A DNA stretch of 64,000 bases from Chloroflexota bacterium. GTDB lineage: Bacteria; Chloroflexota; Anaerolineae; Aggregatilineales; Aggregatilineaceae. The notes under the pieces were generated by a model. That model had not been told where the DNA came from and ran no database searches. It was given only the letters and a program-made list of their open reading frames with translations. Position numbers and translations under genes: made by a program. Below, piece after piece: positions 5,147-63,894 of the stretch; position 1 is the first letter of the stretch, and each line of letters opens with the position of its first letter. The DNA lies in the NCBI GenBank assembly GCA_012729765.1, contig JAAYCM010000115.1:62001-126000 (forward strand), given 5' to 3'.

Positions 5147-6779
5147 GCGGGGACACGTCCTGGCGTCCGAGTGGCGGCGCGTGGGCCTGTTCGCGCTGGC
5201 CGTGATGCTGCTGACGAGCGCGCCCTATTTTGTGGGCGGGCTGGCGGCGGGCGATGGCTGGACGTATGGTGGGTTCCTGTTCGGCGCGGATGACGGCTAC
5301 AGCTACCTGGCCAAGATGCGCCTGGGCGCGCGCGGCGATTGGCTGTTCACGGTGCGCTACACGTCCGAGCCGCACGAGGGCGCGCTGCTGTTCCTGCCCT
5401 ATATCCTGCTCGGCAAGCTGGCCGGGCTGGCCGTGCCGCCGGATGATCCGGGCCTGTTCGCGGCACTGGTGATCGTGTTTCACGCGGCGCGGATCGTGTT
5501 TGGCCTGCTGCTGATCCCGGTCAGCTACCGTTTCGTGGCGGAATTTCTGCGCGCGCCCGGTTTGCGCTTCCTGGCGCTGGTGCTGATCACGCTCGGCGGC
5601 GGGCTGGGCTGGCTGCTGAGCCTGGCCGGGCTAGGCGATCTGTTCGGCTCACTGCCGGTCGATTTTTACGTGCCGGAAGGCTACAGCTTCCTGATCCTGT
5701 ACGGGCTGCCGCACCTGGCGCTGGCACGCGCGGCGCTGCTGGGTGGGCTGCTGCTGCTGTTTCGCGCGCTGGGGCGCCCCGACACGCCGCGCGCGTGGCT
5801 ACCCTGGAGCGTGCTCGCGGGATTGGCGTGGGGCGTGATGGGCCTGTCGGTGCCGTTCTATATTGCCGTCGTGTACGCCGTGCTGGGGGCGTGGGGGCTG
5901 GCGCTGTGGCGGCGCGAGCGGCGGTTCCCCTGGCGGCTGTTCTGGCGGGCGGTGATCGCGGCGCTGGTCGTGCTGCCCGTGCTGGCCTATACTGGCACCG
6001 TGTTCCTGTCGAATGACGTGCTGGGGCGCTGGTCGGGCCAGAACCAGCTCCCGTCGCCGCACCCGCTGCACTACATTTTCGGGTATAGTGTGCTGGCGAT
6101 CCCGGCGGTGGCGGCACTGCGTTGGGCGTGGCGCAAAGGCACGGGCGAGGATGCGCCCTATCTGCTGCTGGCGGCCTGGATCGTGATCGTGCCGGTGCTG
6201 GTCTATCTGCCGATCAACGTGCAGCGCCGCCTGAGCGAGGGCGTGATCGTGCCGCTGGTCGTGCTGGCGGTGGCCGGGCTGCGCCTGCTGATCTCGCACC
6301 GGCAGCAGTGGCGGCGCGCGCGGACGCTGGTGCTGCTGCTGGCGCTGCCGACCGCGATCCTGCTCTGGCTGGGCGGGCTGGTGAGCGCACTCCAGCCGGA
6401 TCGCCCGCTCTTTCGCCCGGATGCTGAGCTGCAGGCGCTCGACACGCTGGACGTGCTCGCGCCGCCGGATGCGGTCGTGCTCAGCGTGAAGGAAACCGGC
6501 AGCGTGATCCCGGCGCGCACGGACCTGATCGCCTATGTCGGGCACGGGCCGGAAACGCTCGACAGCGAGGCGAAGGAGCAGCAGGCGGCGCGCTTTTATG
6601 CCGGGGCGCTGGACGATGCGGCCCGTTGGGCGCTGCTGGCGCAGGTCGATTATGTATTCTATGGGCCGCTGGAGCGCGAAGCCGATCCCGCGCCGGGGTG
6701 GGATGCCGGGCTGCGCCTGCTGGAACCGTTCGATCCATCCGATCCCTATCGAGTCTACGAGGTGCTGAGGCGTGACTAG
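5139..6779 (+). CDS. Polytopic membrane protein, paralogue A' of the interleaved pair
   Basis: The protein has 546 residues with about ten membrane segments and a C-terminal soluble domain (about 415-546). It is homologous to 1399-3066: the shared features are GLGWLL at about residue 150, QNQLPSPHPLHYIFGY against QNITPSPAPHLYLFGY, and INVQRRL against FNLQRRL. ATG 5139 overlaps the upstream stop (ATGCCTGA), and its own stop overlaps the GTG of the next gene. A role in building or transferring a surface glycan is inferred from the operon. A GT-C-like fold is plausible, but no catalytic motif was confirmed. Confidence 0.84.
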   Translation: MPERGHVLASEWRRVGLFALAVMLLTSAPYFVGGLAAGDGWTYGGFLFGADDGYSYLAKMRLGARGDWLFTVRYTSEPHEGALLFLPYILLGKLAGLAVPPDDPGLFAALVIVFHAARIVFGLLLIPVSYRFVAEFLRAPGLRFLALVLITLGGGLGWLLSLAGLGDLFGSLPVDFYVPEGYSFLILYGLPHLALARAALLGGLLLLFRALGRPDTPRAWLPWSVLAGLAWGVMGLSVPFYIAVVYAVLGAWGLALWRRERRFPWRLFWRAVIAALVVLPVLAYTGTVFLSNDVLGRWSGQNQLPSPHPLHYIFGYSVLAIPAVAALRWAWRKGTGEDAPYLLLAAWIVIVPVLVYLPINVQRRLSEGVIVPLVVLAVAGLRLLISHRQQWRRARTLVLLLALPTAILLWLGGLVSALQPDRPLFRPDAELQALDTLDVLAPPDAVVLSVKETGSVIPARTDLIAYVGHGPETLDSEAKEQQAARFYAGALDDAARWALLAQVDYVFYGPLEREADPAPGWDAGLRLLEPFDPSDPYRVYEVLRRD

Positions 6780-9129
6780 GCGCGATATCCCCGCCTGGCT
6801 GCCGCTGGTGCTGGTGGCGCTGGCGCTGTTTGCGCTGTTCCACCGGCTGCTCAGCGGCCATACCCTGTTTTGGGGCCTGCCGTCGCTCCAGTTCTATCCC
6901 TGGCGGCACTATGCGTTCCAACTACTGAGCGATGGGCGGCTGCCCGGCTGGAATCCCTATATCGGGGCGGGCGCGCCGCTGCTGGCGAACTATCAGACCG
7001 CCGTTTTCTACCCGCCCAACTGGTTGTTCCTGGTGCTGCCCGATCCGCAAGCGATGAACCTGATCGCGCTGGTGCACGTTCTGTGGGCCGGGCTGGGGAT
7101 GTGGCTCTTCACCGGGGCGCTGGGGCAGACCACCTTCGGGCGCGGCATGAGCACGCTGGCCTATGCGCTGTCGGGCTACCTGCTGGGGCGCTTCGGCTCG
7201 TTCCCGACCGCCGACGCAGCGGCCTGGATTCCTTGGGTGTTCTGGCTGGTGCACCGCCTGCTGACGCTGCGCCGCTGGCACGAGATCGGCTGGCTGGCGC
7301 TGATCGTCGCCATGCAACTGCTGGCCGGACACGCTCAGACGACGTGGTACTGTCTGGTGGGGGTGGGGCTGTACGTGGTCTGGCAGAGCGTGTGGGGTGC
7401 GCGAACCGCTCCGCGCCGCCGTCGGGTCTATGCCGTGCTGCTGATCTGCGCCGGGATGCTGCTGGGGCTAGCGATGGCAGCGGTCCAGTTGGTGCCGACC
7501 GCCGAATACTTCCGCGAGTCGTTCCGCGCGGGCGGCATGGATTACGAGTTTGCGACCAACCTGTCCTATTCCCCCCTGCGGCTGATCACGCTCTTCAGCC
7601 CCAACTTTTACGGCACGCCCGCCGATGGCTCGTATATCACCAAAGGCATCTACTTCGAGGACGCAGCCTATATCGGCTTTATCCCAATCGTGTCGGCGCT
7701 GGCGGCGATCGTCGGCTGGTTCCGGCGGCGGCGCTTTATCGCGCATTACCCGATCTTTGCGACGGTGCCGTTCTGGGCGCTGCTGGCGCTGGGCGCGCTG
7801 ATCATCGCCACCGGGCGCTATCTGCCGATCTTTCGCCTGCTCTACGACTACGTGCCCACCTTCGGCTTCTTCCGCGAGCCGGTGCGCTGGCTGATCCTGA
7901 CCGTGTTCGGGCTGTCGGTGCTGGCCGGGATCGGCACGCAGCACTGGGGGCGCGGCAAATGGATCGTGTTCTGGTCACGGCTGGCGGCGGCGGGCGGCGG
8001 CGCGGCGGTCGTCGTGGCGCTGCTGGCACAGACGTTCATGCAGCCTCAGAACGCGGAGAACCTGCAAGTGCTGACGCGCGGGCTGATCGTGCTCGGCTGC
8101 TGGGTTGTGGCGGCAGCGCTGTTCACGCTCACGCAGCCGCAGGGCGAAACGCCGCGCGCGACCGTGCTGTGGCGGACCGCCGTGCTGGTCTTCGTCGCCA
8201 TCGATCTGACCTGGGCCGCCAGCGGGCTGAATCCGACCATCCCGACCAATTTTTACCGCGATTTCGGCGTGCAGCGGCCCGAAGGGCGCGTCTATTGGTT
8301 TGTCGACTATGAGGACGAGGTCAAGTTCGAGCGCTTCTTCGTGCTGTCCGATTACCGGCTGGCGCGCGACCAGTGGCCGGACGTGCGCGGGTCGCTGCTG
8401 CCCAACCTGAACATGCTCGACCGTGTGCCGCTGCTCAATAACTTCGATCCGCTCGTGCCCCGCCACCACCGCGAATATATCGATCTGATCGAGGAACTGG
8501 GGCCAGACGCCGGGCCGCTGCTGCGGGCGGCGGGCGTGTCGCAGGTCTACGGCGAGACGCGCCCCGCTGGCTGGCCGGGTGAGGCCCCGATCTTCGTCGC
8601 GCCGCAGGAGACGCCGCGCGCCTGGCTGGTGACGGACGCGCGCTGGCTTGAATCGAATGACGCCGTGCAGGGCGCGCTGCGCGATCCCGCCTGGGACCCG
8701 GCGCAAACCGTGATCCTGGCCGGGGAGCCGCCGGACGATCAACCCCTGCCAGATGGCGGGCCGGTGGGCAGCCTGACCGTGCTGGAGCAGCGCCCCAACC
8801 AGCTTCGCTACCGCGTCGAGACGGAGTCGGCGGCCTATCTCGTGCTCAGCCATTCCTGGTATCCTGGCTGGCGCGCGACGATCGATGGCCGCCCGGCGGA
8901 GCTGGTGCGCGCCAATCTCGCCTTCCAGGCTGTGATCATCCCGCCGGGTGGGGGCGATGTGACGCTGCGCTATCACCTGACCGGGTGGCAGACCGGGGCC
9001 GCGATCAGCATCCTGGCGCTGCTGCTGGTGTTTGGCGTGGTGGCGCTCGGCAGCCTGCTTGCGGCGCGCGAGCCGGGATCGCCGGAGTCCCCGCGCCCGG
9101 TTCGACGCGGGCCGGACGCATCGCTATAA
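6772..9129 (+). CDS. YfhO-family membrane protein, paralogue B' of the interleaved pair
   Basis: The protein has 785 residues and is a clearer YfhO family (PF09586) member than its paralogue. The N-terminal helix is followed by a loop with LPGWNPYIGAGAPLLANYQ and YPPNWLF. About 11 membrane helices, a soluble domain (about 500-740) with a SHSWYPGWRATIDG motif typical of YfhO C-termini, and a final membrane helix follow. YfhO proteins are linked to glycosylation of lipoteichoic acid or other surface polymers in Gram-positives. The role in this lineage is not established. The start is GTG 6772, overlapping the upstream stop by 8 bases. It is the last of the four interleaved genes. Confidence 0.88.
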   Translation: MTRRDIPAWLPLVLVALALFALFHRLLSGHTLFWGLPSLQFYPWRHYAFQLLSDGRLPGWNPYIGAGAPLLANYQTAVFYPPNWLFLVLPDPQAMNLIALVHVLWAGLGMWLFTGALGQTTFGRGMSTLAYALSGYLLGRFGSFPTADAAAWIPWVFWLVHRLLTLRRWHEIGWLALIVAMQLLAGHAQTTWYCLVGVGLYVVWQSVWGARTAPRRRRVYAVLLICAGMLLGLAMAAVQLVPTAEYFRESFRAGGMDYEFATNLSYSPLRLITLFSPNFYGTPADGSYITKGIYFEDAAYIGFIPIVSALAAIVGWFRRRRFIAHYPIFATVPFWALLALGALIIATGRYLPIFRLLYDYVPTFGFFREPVRWLILTVFGLSVLAGIGTQHWGRGKWIVFWSRLAAAGGGAAVVVALLAQTFMQPQNAENLQVLTRGLIVLGCWVVAAALFTLTQPQGETPRATVLWRTAVLVFVAIDLTWAASGLNPTIPTNFYRDFGVQRPEGRVYWFVDYEDEVKFERFFVLSDYRLARDQWPDVRGSLLPNLNMLDRVPLLNNFDPLVPRHHREYIDLIEELGPDAGPLLRAAGVSQVYGETRPAGWPGEAPIFVAPQETPRAWLVTDARWLESNDAVQGALRDPAWDPAQTVILAGEPPDDQPLPDGGPVGSLTVLEQRPNQLRYRVETESAAYLVLSHSWYPGWRATIDGRPAELVRANLAFQAVIIPPGGGDVTLRYHLTGWQTGAAISILALLLVFGVVALGSLLAAREPGSPESPRPVRRGPDASL

Positions 9130-51893: not shown

Positions 51894-53066
51894 CTAGGAT
51901 GCGGAATCCGGCGGCTTCTGCTGCATCTGCATCGACGCTTCCAGGCGCTTAACCTTGCGCTCCGCCCACCAGCGATTCCACGTGCCGACAATGCCGTTCG
52001 GCAGCACCATCACCACCACCACGAACAGCACCCCCAGGAACAGGTCCCACAGGTCGGCGATCTCATACGTGGCCGAGCCGATGCGCAGCGTCTCGTCGCG
52101 CAGATACGCCTCGCCCAGCTCCAGGCCCAGGCTGCTGATCACCGGCCCGGCGAGTGTCCCCACGCCGCCGATCAGCGTATACAACAGCGGTTGGACCGTG
52201 TAATTGAGGCTGAGCAGGTCCGGCTTGATGCGCTTGTCGGTGCTCCACAGGACGAGCAGTATCCCGGTCAGGCAGGCGATCACGCCCGCAAACACCATCG
52301 TGATCAGCTTGTAGCGGAAGGTGTTATAGCCGATAGTGCGTGCGCGCTCTTCGTTCTCGCGGATGGCGAGCATCACGCGGCCCACCGGCGAGTTGAGATA
52401 GCGCCGGATCGCCAGGAACACGATCACGAAGAAGATCAGTGTATAGCGGTACATCACCAGGCGGCTGCCGTCGCCGGTCGGGGTGGGATTAAGCGCTTCC
52501 GGGATCAGGTCGCGAATCAGCAGGCCGTCTTCCGCCCCGGTGATGTTGCGGAAAGTGCCGCTCTTGGCCAGCACGAAGAACATCTCGGCGAAGGCCAGCG
52601 TGAACATCGTGAAGTAGACGCCACGCAGCCGCAGCGTGACCACGCCCGCGACCAGGCTCAGCAGGATGCTCGCCAGCACCGCCGCGATCACGGCGACGTA
52701 GAACGAGATGCCGTCCACCTGCGACATCACGACGAAGGTCACATAGCCGCCCGCGCCAAAAAACAGCGCGTGCCCGAACGAGATGATCCCGCTGAAGCCG
52801 AACAGCAGGTTATAGCTCATCGACAGGCTGGCGATCAGCAGCGACTGCGCCATCACGCTCTGCCAGAAAACCGAGTCGCCGGTCGGGCGGCGCGGCGTAA
52901 CTTCAGTGTCGCTCAGGCTGGCGACGATGTAGGGGAAGCGCCACAGCAGCAGGAAAACCAGGATATACAGCCAGTTTTCCAGCACCAGGCGGGCCAGCCC
53001 TTCGGCCACATTCCGCAGGGCGGGATTTTCGATCTTGTTGATGGTGGTATATACGGTGCGCTGCAT
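51894..53066 (-). CDS. livM: Branched-chain amino-acid-type ABC transporter permease (LivM)
   Basis: The protein has 390 residues with about ten membrane helices. The LivM domain (PF02653) shows SYNLLFGFSGIISFGHALFFGAGGY, NSPVGRVMLAIRENEERARTIGYN and GTLAGPVIGS-like GGVGTLAGPVISSLGL. ATG 53066 has GGAGG 7 bases before it and overlaps the livH stop by 1 base; a GTG 3 bases earlier is possible. It pairs with LivH to form the pore. The last gene of the liv set; the terminator follows. Confidence 0.93.
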   Translation of the reverse strand: MQRTVYTTINKIENPALRNVAEGLARLVLENWLYILVFLLLWRFPYIVASLSDTEVTPRRPTGDSVFWQSVMAQSLLIASLSMSYNLLFGFSGIISFGHALFFGAGGYVTFVVMSQVDGISFYVAVIAAVLASILLSLVAGVVTLRLRGVYFTMFTLAFAEMFFVLAKSGTFRNITGAEDGLLIRDLIPEALNPTPTGDGSRLVMYRYTLIFFVIVFLAIRRYLNSPVGRVMLAIRENEERARTIGYNTFRYKLITMVFAGVIACLTGILLVLWSTDKRIKPDLLSLNYTVQPLLYTLIGGVGTLAGPVISSLGLELGEAYLRDETLRIGSATYEIADLWDLFLGVLFVVVVMVLPNGIVGTWNRWWAERKVKRLEASMQMQQKPPDSAS

Positions 53067-54064
53067 CACGCTTCCTCCCGGCCAAACAGACCGCTCGGCT
53101 GGACGAGCAGCACGAGGATCATCAGCAGCAGAATCGACGTCTCGGCCAGCACCGGCGCGTTGAAATGAGTCAGCGAAAGCTGCTCGGCGACGGCGCGCGT
53201 CAGCCCGACGACGACGCTGGCGATCGCGGTCCCTTCATAACTCCCCATGCCGCCGATCACGACCACGACAATCGCCAGGATCAAAAACTGGTTGCCCATT
53301 TCGAGCGTCGCGCCCTGGTAGGGCACAATGGCGATCCCGCCCAGCGCGGCCAGCGCCGATCCCAGCACGAACACCAGCGTAAACACCAGCCGGACGTTGA
53401 TGCCGAGCGCCTGGACCATCTCGCTGTCCTGTACGCCGGCGCGGATGATGATCCCGATCCGGGTGCGGTGCAGCAGGATGAACACCCCGATCATCATCGC
53501 CAGCCCCAGGAAGATGATGAACAAGCGGTAGACGCTCAGGCTTTGCGCGAAGAGCGTGAACTTTTCGTCCAGAAAGGCCGGGGGCTTGATCGGCTGCTTG
53601 GGGTCGGGGCCATAGTAGCGCTCGACCAGGTCCATCAGGATCGCGGCCAGGCCGAAGGTCAGCACGATCTGGAAGATGGGCCGCTTGTAGAGCGGGCGGA
53701 TCAGCCCGGCCTCGACCAGCGTCCCCAATATCCCGCCGACGACCACCGCCGTGATGAACGCGGCCAGCAGGCTGAGTCCCGCGCCCAGGCCGATGCCCTC
53801 ATAAACCTGGTAGCCGACATAGGCACCCACCAGCAGGAAAGCGCCCTGCGCGAAGTTGAGCACGTCGAGCAGCCCGAAGATCAGCGACAGGCCCGACGCC
53901 ACCAGGAAAACCAGCATTCCCAGCAGCAGGCCGCGAAAAACGGTCTGGCCGGCGGTGTTCAGGCCAAAGTCGGCCAGACTGATGACGATCAGCAGGCCCA
54001 GATAGGCCGCCACCAGACCCCACGAGCGGCGGTGTTCGGGCGATAGCTGCTTGAAATAGTTCAT
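53066..54064 (-). CDS. livH: Branched-chain amino-acid-type ABC transporter permease (LivH)
   Basis: The protein has 332 residues with eight or so membrane helices. LivH hallmarks are LIFGLLDVLNFAQGAFLLVGAY near residues 64-85 and VVVIGGMGSYEGTAIASVVVGL near the C-terminus. It lies 19 bases after livF and overlaps livM by 1 base. Together with LivM it transports the ligand delivered by the binding protein at 55678-56955. Confidence 0.93.
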   Translation of the reverse strand: MNYFKQLSPEHRRSWGLVAAYLGLLIVISLADFGLNTAGQTVFRGLLLGMLVFLVASGLSLIFGLLDVLNFAQGAFLLVGAYVGYQVYEGIGLGAGLSLLAAFITAVVVGGILGTLVEAGLIRPLYKRPIFQIVLTFGLAAILMDLVERYYGPDPKQPIKPPAFLDEKFTLFAQSLSVYRLFIIFLGLAMMIGVFILLHRTRIGIIIRAGVQDSEMVQALGINVRLVFTLVFVLGSALAALGGIAIVPYQGATLEMGNQFLILAIVVVVIGGMGSYEGTAIASVVVGLTRAVAEQLSLTHFNAPVLAETSILLLMILVLLVQPSGLFGREEA

Positions 54065-54083: not shown

Positions 54084-54803
54084 CTAAGCCACGCCCAGAT
54101 AGGTCTTGATCAGCTCGGTGTCATTCACGAGATCGGCCATCAGCCCGCTGTGGACCGAGACGCCTTCCTCGATGATCACGTAGCGCTCGGCAAGCTGGCT
54201 GGCGACCTGGAAGTTCTGCTCGACCAGCAGCACGGTCGTGCTGGCCGAAAGCTGCCGGATCGCGTCCATCATCTGCTCGATCAGCACCGGGGCCAGCCCT
54301 TCGCTCGGCTCGTCGATCAGCAGCAGATGGTTGTCGGGCACCAGCGCGCGCGCGATGGCGAGCATCTGCTGCTGCCCGCCCGACAGGTTGCCGCCCCGCA
54401 GACTGTAGAGCCGCTTGAGGTCGGGGAATAAGTTGAAGATAAAGTCGGCTTTGCGCTCCAGATCGCCTTTTTTGCGCTCGGCGATTTGCAGATTTTGCGC
54501 GACGGTCAGGTCGCGGAAGATGATGCGATTCTCCGGCACATAGCCGATGCCCATCTGCGCGATCTTGTGCGCGGGCCGGCCCTGGATCGCCTGGCCTCGG
54601 AACACGATCTGGCCCTCGCGCGGCGGCGTCAGGCCGATGATGCTGCGCAGCGTGGTTGTTTTGCCCGCGCCGTTGCGCCCCAGCAGCACCGTGATGCTGC
54701 CCGGCGGCACCGCCACCGTGACACCTTCCAGGATGTGAAACTGGCCGATAAAGGTGTGGATGTTCTGGACTTCCAGCATCGCCGTTGTGATCGCCGCGCT
54801 CAT
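54084..54803 (-). CDS. livF: Branched-chain amino-acid-type ABC transporter ATPase (LivF)
   Basis: The protein has 239 residues. Walker A is LGRNGAGKTT, followed by PAHKIAQMGIGYVPENRIIF, signature LSGGQQQMLAIARAL, Walker B LLLIDEPSEGLAP and the H-loop VEQN. The EGLAP and VEQNF forms are those of LivF, separating it from LivG. The start overlaps the livG stop by 4 bases. Confidence 0.94.
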   Translation of the reverse strand: MSAAITTAMLEVQNIHTFIGQFHILEGVTVAVPPGSITVLLGRNGAGKTTTLRSIIGLTPPREGQIVFRGQAIQGRPAHKIAQMGIGYVPENRIIFRDLTVAQNLQIAERKKGDLERKADFIFNLFPDLKRLYSLRGGNLSGGQQQMLAIARALVPDNHLLLIDEPSEGLAPVLIEQMMDAIRQLSASTTVLLVEQNFQVASQLAERYVIIEEGVSVHSGLMADLVNDTELIKTYLGVA

Positions 54804-57103: not shown

Positions 57104-58645
<1,542 letters not shown>

Positions 58646-58657
58646 GCGGTCCCTCTC

Positions 58658-59647
58658 CTAGCTCGTCCAGATAAACGCGGTAGCGGCCATCGTATAGCCC
58701 GCGCCGCTGCCGCAAAAGACGACCAGCTCGCCCGGCTGCGGCCCGCGCTGTTGCTCGATCGCGTCGTCGAGCGCCATCGGCATGCAGGCCGAGCCGGTAT
58801 AGCCCCACTTGTCCATGATGGTATGCGTTTTTTCGGGCGGCAGGCCGAGATCGGCCAGCACCACCTGGATGGTGCGCAGGTTGAGCTGCGTGAAGTAGAT
58901 CCGGTCGATGTCGCTCACCGGGCGGCCAATCTTGTCCATCAGCCCGCGCACGAGCGGCGGCCAGCCCAGGTTGTTGGTATCGGGCGGGAAGCGCTTGCGG
59001 ATTTCGAGACGCTGCGGGCGCGTCTCGGCCCCGCCGGTCGGCTCGACCGTGCCGCCGATGAAGACGCCCATATAGTCGTGAAACGCGCCGTCGGAACGCA
59101 TGCTGCCGCCCAGGAAACCAGGTTGATCGCCCGCGCTGAGCAGGACCGCGCCGCCGCCGTCGCCAAATAGCGTGCAGGTGCGTTTGTCGGTCCAGTCCAC
59201 GAAGCGTGTCATGCCATACGCGCCGATGACCAGGATGTGATTGTAGCTGGCGTCGGTCGCAATATAGCGGCTGGCGATGTCCAGCCCGATTACCCACGCC
59301 GCGCACGCGCTGTTCACGTCATACGTTCCGGCGTTGACCGCGCCGAGCTTAAGCTGCACGACCGACGCCGTGCCGGGCGAGACGTAGTCGGGCGTGTCGG
59401 TCGCCAGGATGATCAGGTCCACGTCTTCGGGCGGCACCTGGGCGCGCACCAAAGCTTCGCGGGCGGCATGCACGGCCAGATCGGACGTAACCTCGTCGTC
59501 GGCCATCAGGCGGCGCTCGCGGATGCCAACGTTCTCGATCAGCCACTGATCGACTGGCTCACCCAGGAGCGCGTCAAGCTCGGCGTTGGTGCGCACCCGC
59601 GCCGGAACATAGCGGCCCGTGCTGGCGATCTGTGCGTAGCGCGGCAT
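58658..59647 (-). CDS. Diverged KAS III (FabH)-like thiolase-fold protein A
   Basis: The protein has 329 residues with the FabH fold. The nucleophile C115 lies in YDVNSACAAWVIGL, and the glycine-rich FGDGGGAVLLS and CGSGAGYTMAATAF segments are present. The other two catalytic residues of FabH are changed: the HQAN-type motif reads TQLN (His to Thr253) and the GNTSA motif reads GYTGSA (Asn to Tyr283). Those residues drive decarboxylation of malonyl-ACP, so ordinary chain initiation looks unlikely. Acyl transfer or a non-decarboxylating condensation or cleavage is possible. It is 5 bases after the hydrolase gene. The fold is firm, the reaction open. Confidence 0.88.
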   Translation of the reverse strand: MPRYAQIASTGRYVPARVRTNAELDALLGEPVDQWLIENVGIRERRLMADDEVTSDLAVHAAREALVRAQVPPEDVDLIILATDTPDYVSPGTASVVQLKLGAVNAGTYDVNSACAAWVIGLDIASRYIATDASYNHILVIGAYGMTRFVDWTDKRTCTLFGDGGGAVLLSAGDQPGFLGGSMRSDGAFHDYMGVFIGGTVEPTGGAETRPQRLEIRKRFPPDTNNLGWPPLVRGLMDKIGRPVSDIDRIYFTQLNLRTIQVVLADLGLPPEKTHTIMDKWGYTGSACMPMALDDAIEQQRGPQPGELVVFCGSGAGYTMAATAFIWTS

Positions 59648-59652
59648 GATGA

Positions 59653-60447
59653 CTAGCTCCGCTGCCGGGTCACGCCGGCCAGATGCTGCCGGAGCACGGC
59701 GGCCCAGGCATCCGGCGCTTCGACATTGGGCGAGTGGCTGGCGGCGGGAATCTCAACGTACTCTGCGCCGGGCAGGTTCTCAACGATCGTCCGGCAGACA
59801 GCCTCGGTCGAGATGTACTGATCCTGTGCGCCGCGCACCACCAGCGCCGGGATACCGGCCAGCGCGTGCAGCCGGTCCACCACTGCCCACGCGCTGAGCG
59901 CCACCGGCCCGCGCAGGCTGGCTTCGTCGGTCTGCTTCAGGCTGGCCGCTTCGAGACGCTGCCAGTTGTCGTCGGCGGGGTGCAGCATTGCGATCCCGCG
60001 CAGGGCCATCTTCAGCAGCGCCTTGTCAGCTACCATCTGCTGGACGCGCGCCGGATCGCCCACCGCTGCCGGCATATCGCCCGCCACCCAGCCAGGGTTG
60101 AGCAGCAGCAGGCTTTTGACCTCGGCGGGGTGGTCGAGCGCGTATTGCAGCACGACGCTGGAGCCGAGCGAGTGCCCGACGAAGTGCGCCGCGCCCAGGC
60201 CGAGATGTTCCACCAGCCCGCGCAGATCGCCGGCCAGCATCTCGACCGTCCACTCGGCGGACGGGCCGGTCGTGTCGCCGCGCCCGCGCAGGTCCGGCGC
60301 GATGAAGTGATAGGCGTCGCCCAGCCGCTCCAGGGTGTATTCCCACCACACGCTGCTCGACGTGTTGCCGTGCACCAGCACGACCGGCTCACCCCGGCCC
60401 TGTTCCTTGTAATGGATCGTCAGATCACCTACGACTGCGGTCGGCAT
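59653..60447 (-). CDS. Alpha/beta hydrolase with Ser-Asp-His triad
   Basis: The protein has 264 residues from ATG 60447, with GAGGAG 9 bases before. The alpha/beta fold shows the HGNTS oxyanion region, nucleophile S93 in GHSLGS, D209 in RGAQDQYI, and H238 in AASHSPN. It resembles esterases, thioesterases and C-C bond hydrolases of the MhpC type. In this cluster it may cleave a thioester or a beta-diketone product, but this is inference. It sits between the second ligase and KAS-like A with small gaps, so it belongs to the operon. Confidence 0.9.
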   Translation of the reverse strand: MPTAVVGDLTIHYKEQGRGEPVVLVHGNTSSSVWWEYTLERLGDAYHFIAPDLRGRGDTTGPSAEWTVEMLAGDLRGLVEHLGLGAAHFVGHSLGSSVVLQYALDHPAEVKSLLLLNPGWVAGDMPAAVGDPARVQQMVADKALLKMALRGIAMLHPADDNWQRLEAASLKQTDEASLRGPVALSAWAVVDRLHALAGIPALVVRGAQDQYISTEAVCRTIVENLPGAEYVEIPAASHSPNVEAPDAWAAVLRQHLAGVTRQRS

Positions 60448-60467: not shown

Positions 60468-62015
60468 TCAGGCTTCCGGCTGGCCGAACTGTTGGGCCAG
60501 CGCCTTTTTGTCGATTTTACCCGCGCCGGTCTTGGGCAGAGCTTCCACGAATACGACCGACTTGGGAACCTTGTAGCGCGCCAGGTGGCCGCGCAGGAAC
60601 TCGATCACGTCCTCGCCGATCAGGCTGTGGCCCGGCTCCGTCACCACGATCGCGCGCCCGACCTCGCCCCACGTCTCGTCGGGGACGCCGATCAGTGCCG
60701 CCTCGTGGATCGCCGGGTGGCGGTACATCACGCTCTCAACCTCAGCCGGGTAGATGTTCTCGCCGCCGGAGATGATCATATCCTTCAGCCGCCCGACGAT
60801 GGTGTAGTAGCCCTCGTCGTCGCACGTGGCGAGATCGCCGGTGTGCAGCCAGCCGTTCACAATCGCCTCGGCGGTCGCGGCGGGATTGTTCCAGTAGCCC
60901 GGCGTGACGTGCGGCCCCCGGATCAGCAGTTCGCCCGGCTCGCCCGCGTCACAACGCGTGCCGTCGGGCCGGACGACTTTTACGTCCACGTGCATCAGCG
61001 GGAACCCGACCGCGCCCGGCTTGCGGCGCACATCGGCAGCCGGCAGCCAGAAGGTATTCGGCCCCGCTTCGGTCAGCCCATAGCCGGTCTTGAAGTCTAT
61101 GCCCTTGTCCCAGAAGCGCTCGAAGATCGGCATGGGGCAGGGCGCGCCACCGCTGATCACCAGCTTGAGCCGGCTGAAATCGGCTTCGGCCCAGCGCGGA
61201 TGCGTTTGCAGCTTGACAAACATGGTCGGCACGCCGAAGAACAGCGTCACGCCGCCGTCTTTGATCAGGTCGAAGGTCTGGTCCACGTCGAACCCGGCGG
61301 TCAGGATGTTCGTGCCGCCCGCGTGGATCAGCGGCAGCGTGAAGACATTCAGCCCGCCGGTGTGGAACAGCGGCGAGTTGAGGATCGTGACGTCGTTCTG
61401 GTCCAGCCCCCAGCTCATGACGGTATTGATGCTGTTCCAGGTCATGTTGCCATGCGTCAGGATCGCGCCTTTGGGCAGGCCGGTCGTGCCGCCGGTGTAG
61501 CAGATCACCCAGGGGGCGTCCCAGTCGAGATCGGGGCGCGGTGTGGTGAGCGTGGTGGAGTAGTCGTCACGCTCGCCGAAACAGCGATCGCCGGGCTGAG
61601 CCAGCGCGTTCAGCGCGATAAAGTGCTCGACGCCGGGGATCTGCGGGCGCAGGGCGTTCGTCGTCTCGATAAAGTCGTCGGAGTAGGCGAGCGCTTTGGG
61701 CGTGGTATCGGCGATCAGCCCTTGCAGCTCGGCGGGTGTCAGCCGCCAGTTGAGGTTTTGCAGGATCACGCCGAGCTTGTTGCAGGCCATCCAGATATCG
61801 AGATAGGCCATGCAGTTCGTGGCATACACCGCGATCCGGTCGCCCTGGCGCAGCCCCAGCGCGCGCAGATAGTTTGCCGTCTGGTTCGCCTGCGCGTTCC
61901 ATTCGGCATAGGTATAGTCGCGCCCGGTGATCGTGTCGCGGATGGCGAGCCGGTCCGGTGTCAGTTGGGCGCGGCGCTCTAAAAAGTCGGTGACATAAAG
62001 CGATTTTTGCTGCAT
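60468..62015 (-). CDS. AMP-forming acyl-CoA ligase (second of two)
   Basis: The protein has 515 residues, a paralogue of 57104-58645 with the same motifs: [94 protein letters not shown], and catalytic lysine in [12 protein letters not shown]. Here the P-loop keeps the usual Lys. The substrate is unknown; two ligases in one operon suggest two acids or two steps. It ends 20 bases before the hydrolase and starts 63 bases after the reductase stop. Confidence 0.93.
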
Positions 62016-62078: not shown

Positions 62079-62825
62079 TTACATCACCAGCCCGCCATCG
62101 ACGCTTAGCACGATCCCGTTGATAAATCCCGCCGCTTCCGACGCCAGGAACAGGTAGGCGTTGGCGATGTCTTCGGGCGCGCCCAGGCGGCGTACCGGCG
62201 TGCGCTCGATCAGCGCGTCGATCACCTTCTCCGGCACGGTCTTGATCATATCGGTGGCGATAAAGCCCGGTGCGATCGCGTTGGCGGTGATGCCCTTTGG
62301 ACCCAGCTCGCGTGCCCAGACGCGGGTCATGCCGATCACCCCGGCCTTGGTTGCGACATAATTGGTCTGGCCGAAGTTGCCGTAGATGCCGACCACCGAC
62401 GAAGTGGAGATGATCCGCCCATAGCCGCGCTCGACCATGTGCGGCGCGACAGCCTGGGTCAGGTTGAAGACGCCCTTGAGGTTGACATCGACCACCAGGT
62501 CGAACTCCTCTTCGGTCATCTTGACCAGCCGCGCATCGCGCGTCACCCCGGCATTGTTGCCCAGGATGTCGATCTGCCCGTAGGTGTCGAGCACCTGCGC
62601 GACCGCCGCCTGCACCTGATCGCGTTTTGTCACATTGCAGACGACGGCCAGACTCTCGCCGCCCGCTGCCTTGATCTCGTCGCTCACGCTCTGGACGTTG
62701 TCCCCGGCCATATCCAGCACGGCGACCTTCGCGCCCTCGCCGGCGAAGCGCAGCGCAATCGCCCGCCCGATGCCCTGTCCCGCGCCCGTGATCAGCGCGA
62801 CGCGCCCTTCAAGCTGTTTGCCCAT
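62079..62825 (-). CDS. FabG-type short-chain dehydrogenase (3-oxoacyl reductase)
   Basis: The protein has 248 residues of classical SDR length. The cofactor motif is TGAGQGIG at 13-20, NNAG at 90-93, and the catalytic set is S143, Y156 and K160 (STSSVVGIYGNFGQTNYVATK). It matches E. coli FabG at these places and should reduce a 3-oxoacyl thioester (or oxidise the hydroxyacyl form) with NADP(H) or NAD(H). It is much shorter than extended SDRs such as OleD. It follows KAS-like B by 46 bases in the same operon. Confidence 0.92.
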   Translation of the reverse strand: MGKQLEGRVALITGAGQGIGRAIALRFAGEGAKVAVLDMAGDNVQSVSDEIKAAGGESLAVVCNVTKRDQVQAAVAQVLDTYGQIDILGNNAGVTRDARLVKMTEEEFDLVVDVNLKGVFNLTQAVAPHMVERGYGRIISTSSVVGIYGNFGQTNYVATKAGVIGMTRVWARELGPKGITANAIAPGFIATDMIKTVPEKVIDALIERTPVRRLGAPEDIANAYLFLASEAAGFINGIVLSVDGGLVM

Positions 62826-62871: not shown

Positions 62872-63894
62872 CTAACCCCAGCGGAACGCCGTTGCGCTCC
62901 AGGTGTAGCCGGTGCCCGCCCCGGCCAGCACGATCAGATCGCCGGGCTTGATCTTGCCCTGCGCCAGCCCCAGTTCTAGGGCCAGCGCCTGATCGACGCT
63001 CTGAATGTGGCCGTAGTCTTCCAGGTAAACCGACTGTTCGGCGGTCAGGCCGACTGCTTGCAGAATCTCCAGGTAGAACGAGCGCTTCATGTGGGTGATG
63101 CCCAGGAAGCGCAGGTCGTCCAGACGATAGCCGCTCTGCTCGACCGATTCGGTGATCACCTCGACAAAGCGATCCAGTGACACCGCGCCCAGCCGCTCGG
63201 CCATATACGCCGCGTTGTGCACGTCCAGCCGCCCGTGCAGCGATCCCATCTCGCCCGGCAGCAGCGCGACTCCCTCATCCGCCGGCGTCATGATCACGGT
63301 ATCGGCCAGCGTGCCATCCGTCTTGACCGCCGACTCCAGCACGAGGTTACGGTCCAGCCCGCGCTGAAAGACGACCGCGCCGCCGCCCGCGCCGAAATTG
63401 AACATGAAGCGCGTGCGCATGTTGTCGAAGTCGATCAGGTCGTTTTCGCGGCTGGCACTCACTAGCAGGACGTTGTTCAGACGGGGATCGAGGCGCATCA
63501 TATCGCGCACGGCCTTGTACGCGATCGGCGCACCGGCGCACAGCGCGTACATCTCGAAGGCATAGGCGTTGGTCGCGCCGAGCAGGTTTTGAATCTTGGA
63601 CGCCGCCGACCAGACGATGTGGTCTTTGTACTCGCTGCCGTGATACACCACCAGATCGATATCCTGGGGCGCGAGTTTGGCCTGGGCCAGGGCGCGCTCA
63701 CCGGCGCGGCAGGCCATCGCCGTGATCGTGTCGTCCGGCCCGGCCAGATGCACCTGGCGGATTCCCATTTTTTCCAGCACGACGAATTCCGGCAGGCCGG
63801 TCCGCGCGGCGATCTCGGCGCCGGTCATGACGCGCGCGGGGAGATAGGTGCCGATCCCGGCGATGCCGATAGGGGGGAGCTCGATAAGTGTCAT
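62872..63894 (-). CDS. Diverged KAS III (FabH)-like thiolase-fold protein B
   Basis: The protein has 340 residues from ATG 63894 (an upstream TTG at 63930 is less likely). The fold matches KAS III, with nucleophile C119 in FEMYALCAGAPIAYK and NFGAGGGAVVF. The HQAN-type motif reads THMKR with H268. The FabH GNTSA motif reads GHIQS, so His296 replaces Asn. This gives Cys-His-His, the triad of KAS I/II, in a KAS III frame. It is the promoter-proximal gene of the operon and a distant paralogue of the gene at 58658-59647. The reaction is unknown; it may be a condensing enzyme or a thiolase-like enzyme acting on CoA substrates. Confidence 0.88.
   Translation of the reverse strand: MTLIELPPIGIAGIGTYLPARVMTGAEIAARTGLPEFVVLEKMGIRQVHLAGPDDTITAMACRAGERALAQAKLAPQDIDLVVYHGSEYKDHIVWSAASKIQNLLGATNAYAFEMYALCAGAPIAYKAVRDMMRLDPRLNNVLLVSASRENDLIDFDNMRTRFMFNFGAGGGAVVFQRGLDRNLVLESAVKTDGTLADTVIMTPADEGVALLPGEMGSLHGRLDVHNAAYMAERLGAVSLDRFVEVITESVEQSGYRLDDLRFLGITHMKRSFYLEILQAVGLTAEQSVYLEDYGHIQSVDQALALELGLAQGKIKPGDLIVLAGAGTGYTWSATAFRWG

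Follow-up and report, generated by a model that had tools for sequence, protein, structure and literature searches.

PRK06840-Family KAS III-like Protein in a Conserved Importer Operon: Active Site, Gene Neighbors and a Possible Role in CoA-Linked Hydroxy Acid Metabolism

Results and Discussion

Genes at the Locus

The window, the whole 64,000-nucleotide stretch of Chloroflexota DNA that was analyzed, carries on its minus strand an open reading frame of 340 amino acids with the ATG at 63894 and the stop at 62872 (P0001, protein B). It is the first gene in the window's part of an operon for an importer, ligases, an SDR, a hydrolase and KAS III-like proteins.

62872..63894, minus strand: KAS III-like protein B (P0001); match to NCBIfam NF005308/PRK06840 at 413.5 bits, above the cut-off of 315
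62079..62825, minus strand: SDR of the FabG/acetoacetyl-CoA-reductase type, NF004198, 304.8 bits, above the cut-off of 296
60468..62015, minus strand: acyl-CoA ligase (AMP-binding), PF00501; NF004837, 482 bits, cut-off 476
59653..60447, minus strand: α/β hydrolase with weak likeness to NF050089 and PcaD; NF050089, 104 bits, below the cut-off of 300
58658..59647, minus strand: KAS III-like protein A (P0002), with C115, the FabH His column occupied by Thr253, the Asn column by Tyr (GY), and Cys at +5
57104..58645, minus strand: second acyl-CoA ligase, PF00501; NF004837, 477.5 bits
55678..57003, minus strand: Liv-type ABC substrate-binding protein; PDB 3n0x/3nnd, 186/182 bits
54800..55600, minus strand: ABC ATPase (LivG-like), from the ORF and synteny cluster
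54084..54803, minus strand: ABC ATPase (LivF-like), from the ORF and synteny cluster
53066..54064, minus strand: ABC permease (LivH-like), from the ORF and synteny cluster
51894..53069, minus strand: ABC permease (LivM-like), from the ORF and synteny cluster

Against the AcAcCoA_reduct model the SDR scored 254 bits, below the cut-off, and the top PDB match of the ligase at 60468..62015 was a fatty-acyl/feruloyl-CoA synthetase (8weu/8wev). The PDB relatives of the binding protein, 3n0x and 3nnd, are titled 'possible substrate binding protein', and a literature search for their ligands found nothing useful. Protein A represents a separate conserved KAS III-like clade, found also at loci L010 (14886-15875) and L086 (8992-9990). 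At L086, protein A lies directly upstream of protein B, and at L084 that place is taken by a KAS fragment where the contig ends; protein A is possibly a partner subunit.

Protein B Belongs to the PRK06840 Family

Protein B contains PF08545 and PF08541, both over the gathering score, which places it in the KAS III-like superfamily, and its AlphaFold2 model (pLDDT 92.8) shows a confident KAS III fold. The closest solved structures found by Foldseek are those of FabH, with TM scores of 0.84–0.92 at 20%–26% identity. The match to NF005308 is nearly full-length (residues 8–340 on profile positions 4–336 of 339). Judged by its profile score, protein B is a clear member of PRK06840, a family already known and named ('3-oxoacyl-ACP synthase'), to which it adds one further member. 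Comparison with the family itself revealed no difference: the GHxxxxD motif is invariant in every member read, and the name is generic. The two FabH models stayed below their cut-offs (TIGR00747, 128 versus 292.1 bits; PRK09352, 130.8 versus 249 bits), and neither the KAS I/II nor the thiolase Pfam domains matched protein B. The second catalytic cysteine of thiolases has no counterpart in the protein, whose C-terminal glycine loop contains no cysteine. A 48-residue query against the PDB gave no matches. Literature searches found no paper naming PRK06840 and nothing useful on a FabH-type thiolase or a haloarchaeal counterpart.

A scan for relatives with one genome per species yielded 247, of which the best 80 were kept. 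Among the collected ORFs, the lowest-scoring PRK06840 member reached 239 bits, followed by the next KAS III protein at 124 bits, a gap that, together with the single clade described below, bears out the original prediction's suggestion of a distinct family. PRK06840 exceeded the cut-off in 22 of 251 Chloroflexota genomes and was carried by 45 of 150 genomes of the Bacillus order. One Chloroflexota MAG (L028) has two neighboring PRK06840 ORFs (7528-8550 and 6058-7047), in one of which H268 is replaced by Gln. Elsewhere, a fragment covering the C-terminal part of a KAS III protein (G000:C76:5743-5934 and 7312-7578) is near-identical to the adjoining gene and is either a partial duplication or an assembly artifact.

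An Invariant GHxxxxD Motif in the Active Site

The original prediction had placed Cys119, His268 and His296 of this frame where FabH has Cys-His-Asn. The three positions were confirmed, and the residues are conserved among 106 non-redundant relatives; Asp301, which had not been mentioned, is as invariant as His296.

63538..63540, minus strand: codon of the putative nucleophile Cys119, C or S across all 107 family rows
63091..63093, minus strand: codon of His268 (motif HxKxS), H in 104 of 106
63007..63009, minus strand: codon of His296 (GH of GHxxxxD), 106 of 106
62992..62994, minus strand: codon of Asp301 (D of GHxxxxD), 106 of 106, equivalent to ChlB3 Asp301

Position 119 is Cys in 102 of the PRK06840 rows and Ser in 5, and K270 and S272 are each invariant (106/106). 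The alignments were numbered by an E. coli FabH row that served solely as a numbering reference. C119 aligns with C112 and H296 with N274, so the predicted equivalence stands for these two columns; H268 falls on Q245, and it is T267 that occupies the column of H244. Protein B thus keeps the cysteine of the FabH triad, has His in place of Asn and carries its other histidine one column off. The fold and nucleophile position are those of FabH, but FabH has GN with Ser at +5 where protein B has GH with Asp.

The Ser-nucleophile members form a branch of their own (S-H-H-D, with P, not Q, after the Asp), represented at L048 (3888-4874), L067 (4184-5263), L074 (4276-5280), L106 and L110. In Bacillales, these genes have a TetR gene and one for an acyl-CoA ligase as neighbors, often with MaoC as well, and they sometimes lie next to a Cys-type operon.

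The same GHxxxxD spacing is found in PDB chains of DpsC ('GHLGGGDP') and ChlB3 ('GHLGASDQ'); protein B has 'GHIQSVDQ'. The hand-made GHxxxxD query was used solely for retrieving the real DpsC and ChlB3 sequences, and a second hand-made query matched only StlD and FabH-type chains, which have GN. The triad of ChlB3 is Cys113-His296-Asp301, with the His and Asp of GHxxxxD both catalytic; the same triad is stated for CerJ, and DpsC is described as Ser-His-His and is grouped with the Claisen-condensing KAS III enzymes (PMC9573744). By its GHxxxxD motif and Cys nucleophile, protein B sorts with DpsC, CerJ and ChlB3. Since GH and the Asp at +5 are invariant, as in DpsC and ChlB3, the nearer match is a Cys/Ser-His-Asp arrangement with an extra His, and the catalytic set is likely to consist of Cys (or Ser)119, His296 and Asp301 together with H268, the arrangement of DpsC.

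DpsC, the daunorubicin starter KAS III (PDB 4xs7/5wgc), resembles PRK06840 in its KAS III fold, a nucleophile at the Cys112 site and GHxxxxD, and the His one column past FabH His244 is seen in Ser-type DpsC-like plasmid homologs. It differs in its Ser nucleophile (most PRK06840 proteins have Cys), its separate clade, its ACP-dependent antibiotic pathways and its low identity. The acyltransferases ChlB3 and CerJ (PDB 7eqi and 3s3l) share Cys-His-Asp, the Asp lying five residues past the His, but the Cys-type DpsC-like rows lack H268, and these enzymes belong to natural-product clusters, not import operons. KAS I/II enzymes (FabB/FabF) share the superfamily fold and carry a Cys-His-His triad; they are a different family, and D301 plays no part in such a triad. 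The proposal that protein B is functionally intermediate with KAS I/II was not upheld, as the Asp is always present at +5 of GH, as in DpsC and ChlB3. Taken as the principal interpretation, a KAS I/II-like triad is probably wrong, given that D301 matches H296 in invariance and given the DpsC/ChlB3 precedent.

A Single Switch between GN and GH

The motif was surveyed in 87 KAS III proteins. All 39 GN-type rows keep N and have Ser or Thr, never Asp, at +5; GH with Asp was found in 36 of 36 PRK06840 rows and 6 of 6 DpsC-like rows, and GY with Cys at +5 in 6 protein A rows. The suggested family tree keyed on GN versus GH was built with the trait columns excluded; it is quick and unrooted and has long branches. 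PRK06840 forms one clade (98*), as do the DpsC-like proteins, and protein A forms one clade within the GN group. Two changes of the motif residue are seen on this tree, one between GN and GH and one from GN to GY. The GN/GH branch puts PRK06840 and the DpsC-like proteins on one side, in separate clades on the long branches of this quick unrooted tree, and a shared origin with DpsC is possible. The concern that GH might be common in ordinary KAS III enzymes did not hold for the GN-type FabH rows (0 of 39), although GH does occur in KAS III-like enzymes of known role and is universal in PRK06840. The C-terminal glycine motif said to be shared with protein A is indeed present in both; G327 and G329 are, however, invariant across the aligned KAS III set, canonical FabH included, so the motif is a hallmark of the fold and indicates no special link to protein A.

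Conservation of the Operon

The operon is kept in Bacillota, Chloroflexota and haloarchaea. Among the 49 loci with both flanks, the ATPase of a Liv-type ABC importer is present in 49, the substrate-binding protein in 45, a ligase in 44 and the permeases in 42–43, along with an α/β hydrolase (42), a MalT/BTAD-type regulator (36) and an SDR (35). A thiolase gene lies nearby in 4 of the 49, and a MaoC hydratase is found near the KAS gene in some loci. Four haloarchaeal plasmids show a matching importer order, in which the KAS gene comes immediately after that of the last permease; an α/β hydrolase and an AMP-binding protein are near in three of the four, MaoC in two and an SDR in one. No ACP-like ORF was detected in 85 loci with a profile made from only four sequences; ACP-type genes do adjoin several DpsC-like genes, unlike the PRK06840 loci. 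No carboxylase was seen in the operon and no sugar gene in its core. The conserved neighbors suggest that protein B handles small imported hydroxy and keto acids and is not involved in making fatty acids.

Links to PHA Genes

In Bacillales, the operon hydrolase is an NF050089 protein ('intracellular short-chain-length PHA depolymerase'; 437 bits, cut-off 300). The member known from experiment is B. thuringiensis PhaZ, once annotated as 3-oxoadipate enol-lactonase, as cited in PMC7236355; we infer that this enzyme is the basis of NF050089. Across 150 Bacillales genomes, NF005308 and NF050089 occurred both, former only, latter only and neither in 42/3/7/98 (Fisher p = 3e-26, which overstates the number of independent events because the genomes are related). 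Thus, 42 of the 45 genomes with NF005308 also have NF050089, and the two genes lie within 350 bp in 39 of the 42. The PHA synthase PhaC is present in all 7 NF050089 genomes without the KAS gene but in only 6 of the 42 with both (absent in 36), and a simple 'PHB mobilization operon' in Bacillales was rejected on this comparison. With PhaC so scarce where the KAS and NF050089 genes co-occur, the operon hydrolase probably acts on an imported compound, not on the cell's own PHB.

The sole class III PhaC-like gene of the window's genome (contig 100:126957-127961; 314 bits, below the cut-off of 365) lies just beyond the window, upstream of the KAS gene at a distance of ∼1 kb, with a YwiC-like gene next. 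The PhaC-YwiC-KAS order is repeated at L011 and L018. PhaC was found in 6 of the 22 Chloroflexota genomes with the KAS gene, and in none of the other five is it on the same contig; the link is seen only in the window's close relatives. Within this region (G000:C100:126936-128968, window ∼64936-66968, past its end), the PhaC-like synthase gene encodes a GYCMGG box. Ahead of it lie two small ORFs, coiled-coil-like in character (107 and ∼180 amino acids), which could be a PhaE/PhaR-type subunit or a phasin.

Possible Function of Protein B

The reading favored here, held at somewhat less than an even chance, has protein B forming or cleaving β-ketoacyl-CoA in a CoA-dependent reaction, as part of the metabolism of short (R)-3-hydroxy acids. 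Cys119 would accept an acyl group from CoA, the H296-D301 pair would activate Cys119 as in ChlB3 and DpsC, and H268 would stabilize the enolate, so that the protein would act, free of ACP, at the β-ketoacyl-CoA step of PHA-type metabolism. In Bacillota and haloarchaea this would mainly be cleavage, in a catabolic path in which a compound is imported, hydrolyzed, joined to CoA and oxidized by the SDR before thiolysis; beside the PhaC-like synthase of the window's lineage, the enzyme could also form β-ketoacyl-CoA in place of PhaA. The direction is uncertain, with breakdown in the importer operons and possibly synthesis beside PhaC. An operon with a ligase, an SDR of the (R)-3-hydroxyacyl dehydrogenase type and sometimes MaoC, in which a thiolase is usually missing, makes the KAS III-like protein a natural candidate for the thiolase. 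Against this, a few of the loci carry a thiolase gene, so the operon does not always lack that step; a counterpart of the second thiolase Cys is absent, the PhaC link within Chloroflexota is limited to close relatives, and the window's own hydrolase falls below the NF050089 cut-off. Given the absence of PhaC from most Bacillales genomes with both genes, the substrate need not be PHA. The bolder proposal, that PRK06840 stands in for β-ketothiolase (PhaA) as a CoA-only Cys/Ser-His-Asp enzyme with the KAS III fold, making or cleaving β-ketoacyl-CoA in an (R)-3-hydroxy acid uptake-and-use operon of Bacillota, Chloroflexota and haloarchaea, is possible but rather doubtful.

The main rival is acyl transfer of the CerJ/ChlB3 type, in which the Cys-His-Asp set would acylate a hydroxyl, amine or thiol on the imported compound from an acyl-CoA donor, with no C-C bond formed. 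The GHxxxxD motif common to ChlB3, CerJ and PRK06840, the replacement of Cys by Ser in five members, and the operon α/β hydrolases, which could reverse an ester, are consistent with it; we consider it unlikely, as the second His is kept in PRK06840 and the Ser-type DpsC-like rows but missing in most CerJ/ChlB3-like proteins, the SDR, ligase, MaoC and PHA-gene neighbors favor β-ketoacyl chemistry, and neither an ACP nor a sugar gene was seen in the operon core. Less probable again is a decarboxylating condensation of malonyl-CoA with acyl-CoA by an NphT7-like enzyme or a KAS I/II-like Cys-His-His site: the conservation of C119, H268 and H296 and the classing of the Ser-His-His enzyme DpsC with Claisen-condensing KAS III enzymes (PMC9573744) agree with it, but D301 is no less invariant than the histidines, breakdown suits the importer, the ligase and a hydrolase of depolymerase type better than synthesis does, and the operon shows neither carboxylase nor ACP.

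For all its FabH fold and generic annotation, protein B is very improbable as an ordinary FabH initiating fatty acid synthesis: it scored 128 bits against the fabH cut-off of 292, no FAS genes lie near its locus, no ACP was detected in its operon, other KAS III genes with canonical GN are present in the genome, and PRK06840 occurs within a matching operon in haloarchaea, which to our knowledge lack bacterial fatty acid synthesis. On the model cut-offs, the lack of a detected ACP and the haloarchaeal occurrence, a role in fatty acid synthesis was rejected for protein B.

The label '3-oxoacyl-ACP synthase', which databases give to all of PRK06840, implies fatty acid synthesis, whereas the active site and operon suggest something different, namely that small hydroxy and keto acids are used in a CoA-linked way, with ties to genes of PHA (bioplastic) in two phyla. 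If the preferred assignment to β-ketoacyl-CoA chemistry is true, an annotation in wide use is misleading, and a protein with the KAS III fold performs the job of a thiolase in catabolism. In Bacillales, the NF050089 proteins called 'intracellular PHA depolymerase' are found mostly in genomes without PhaC, beside PRK06840, and for those adjoining PRK06840 that name may be misleading.
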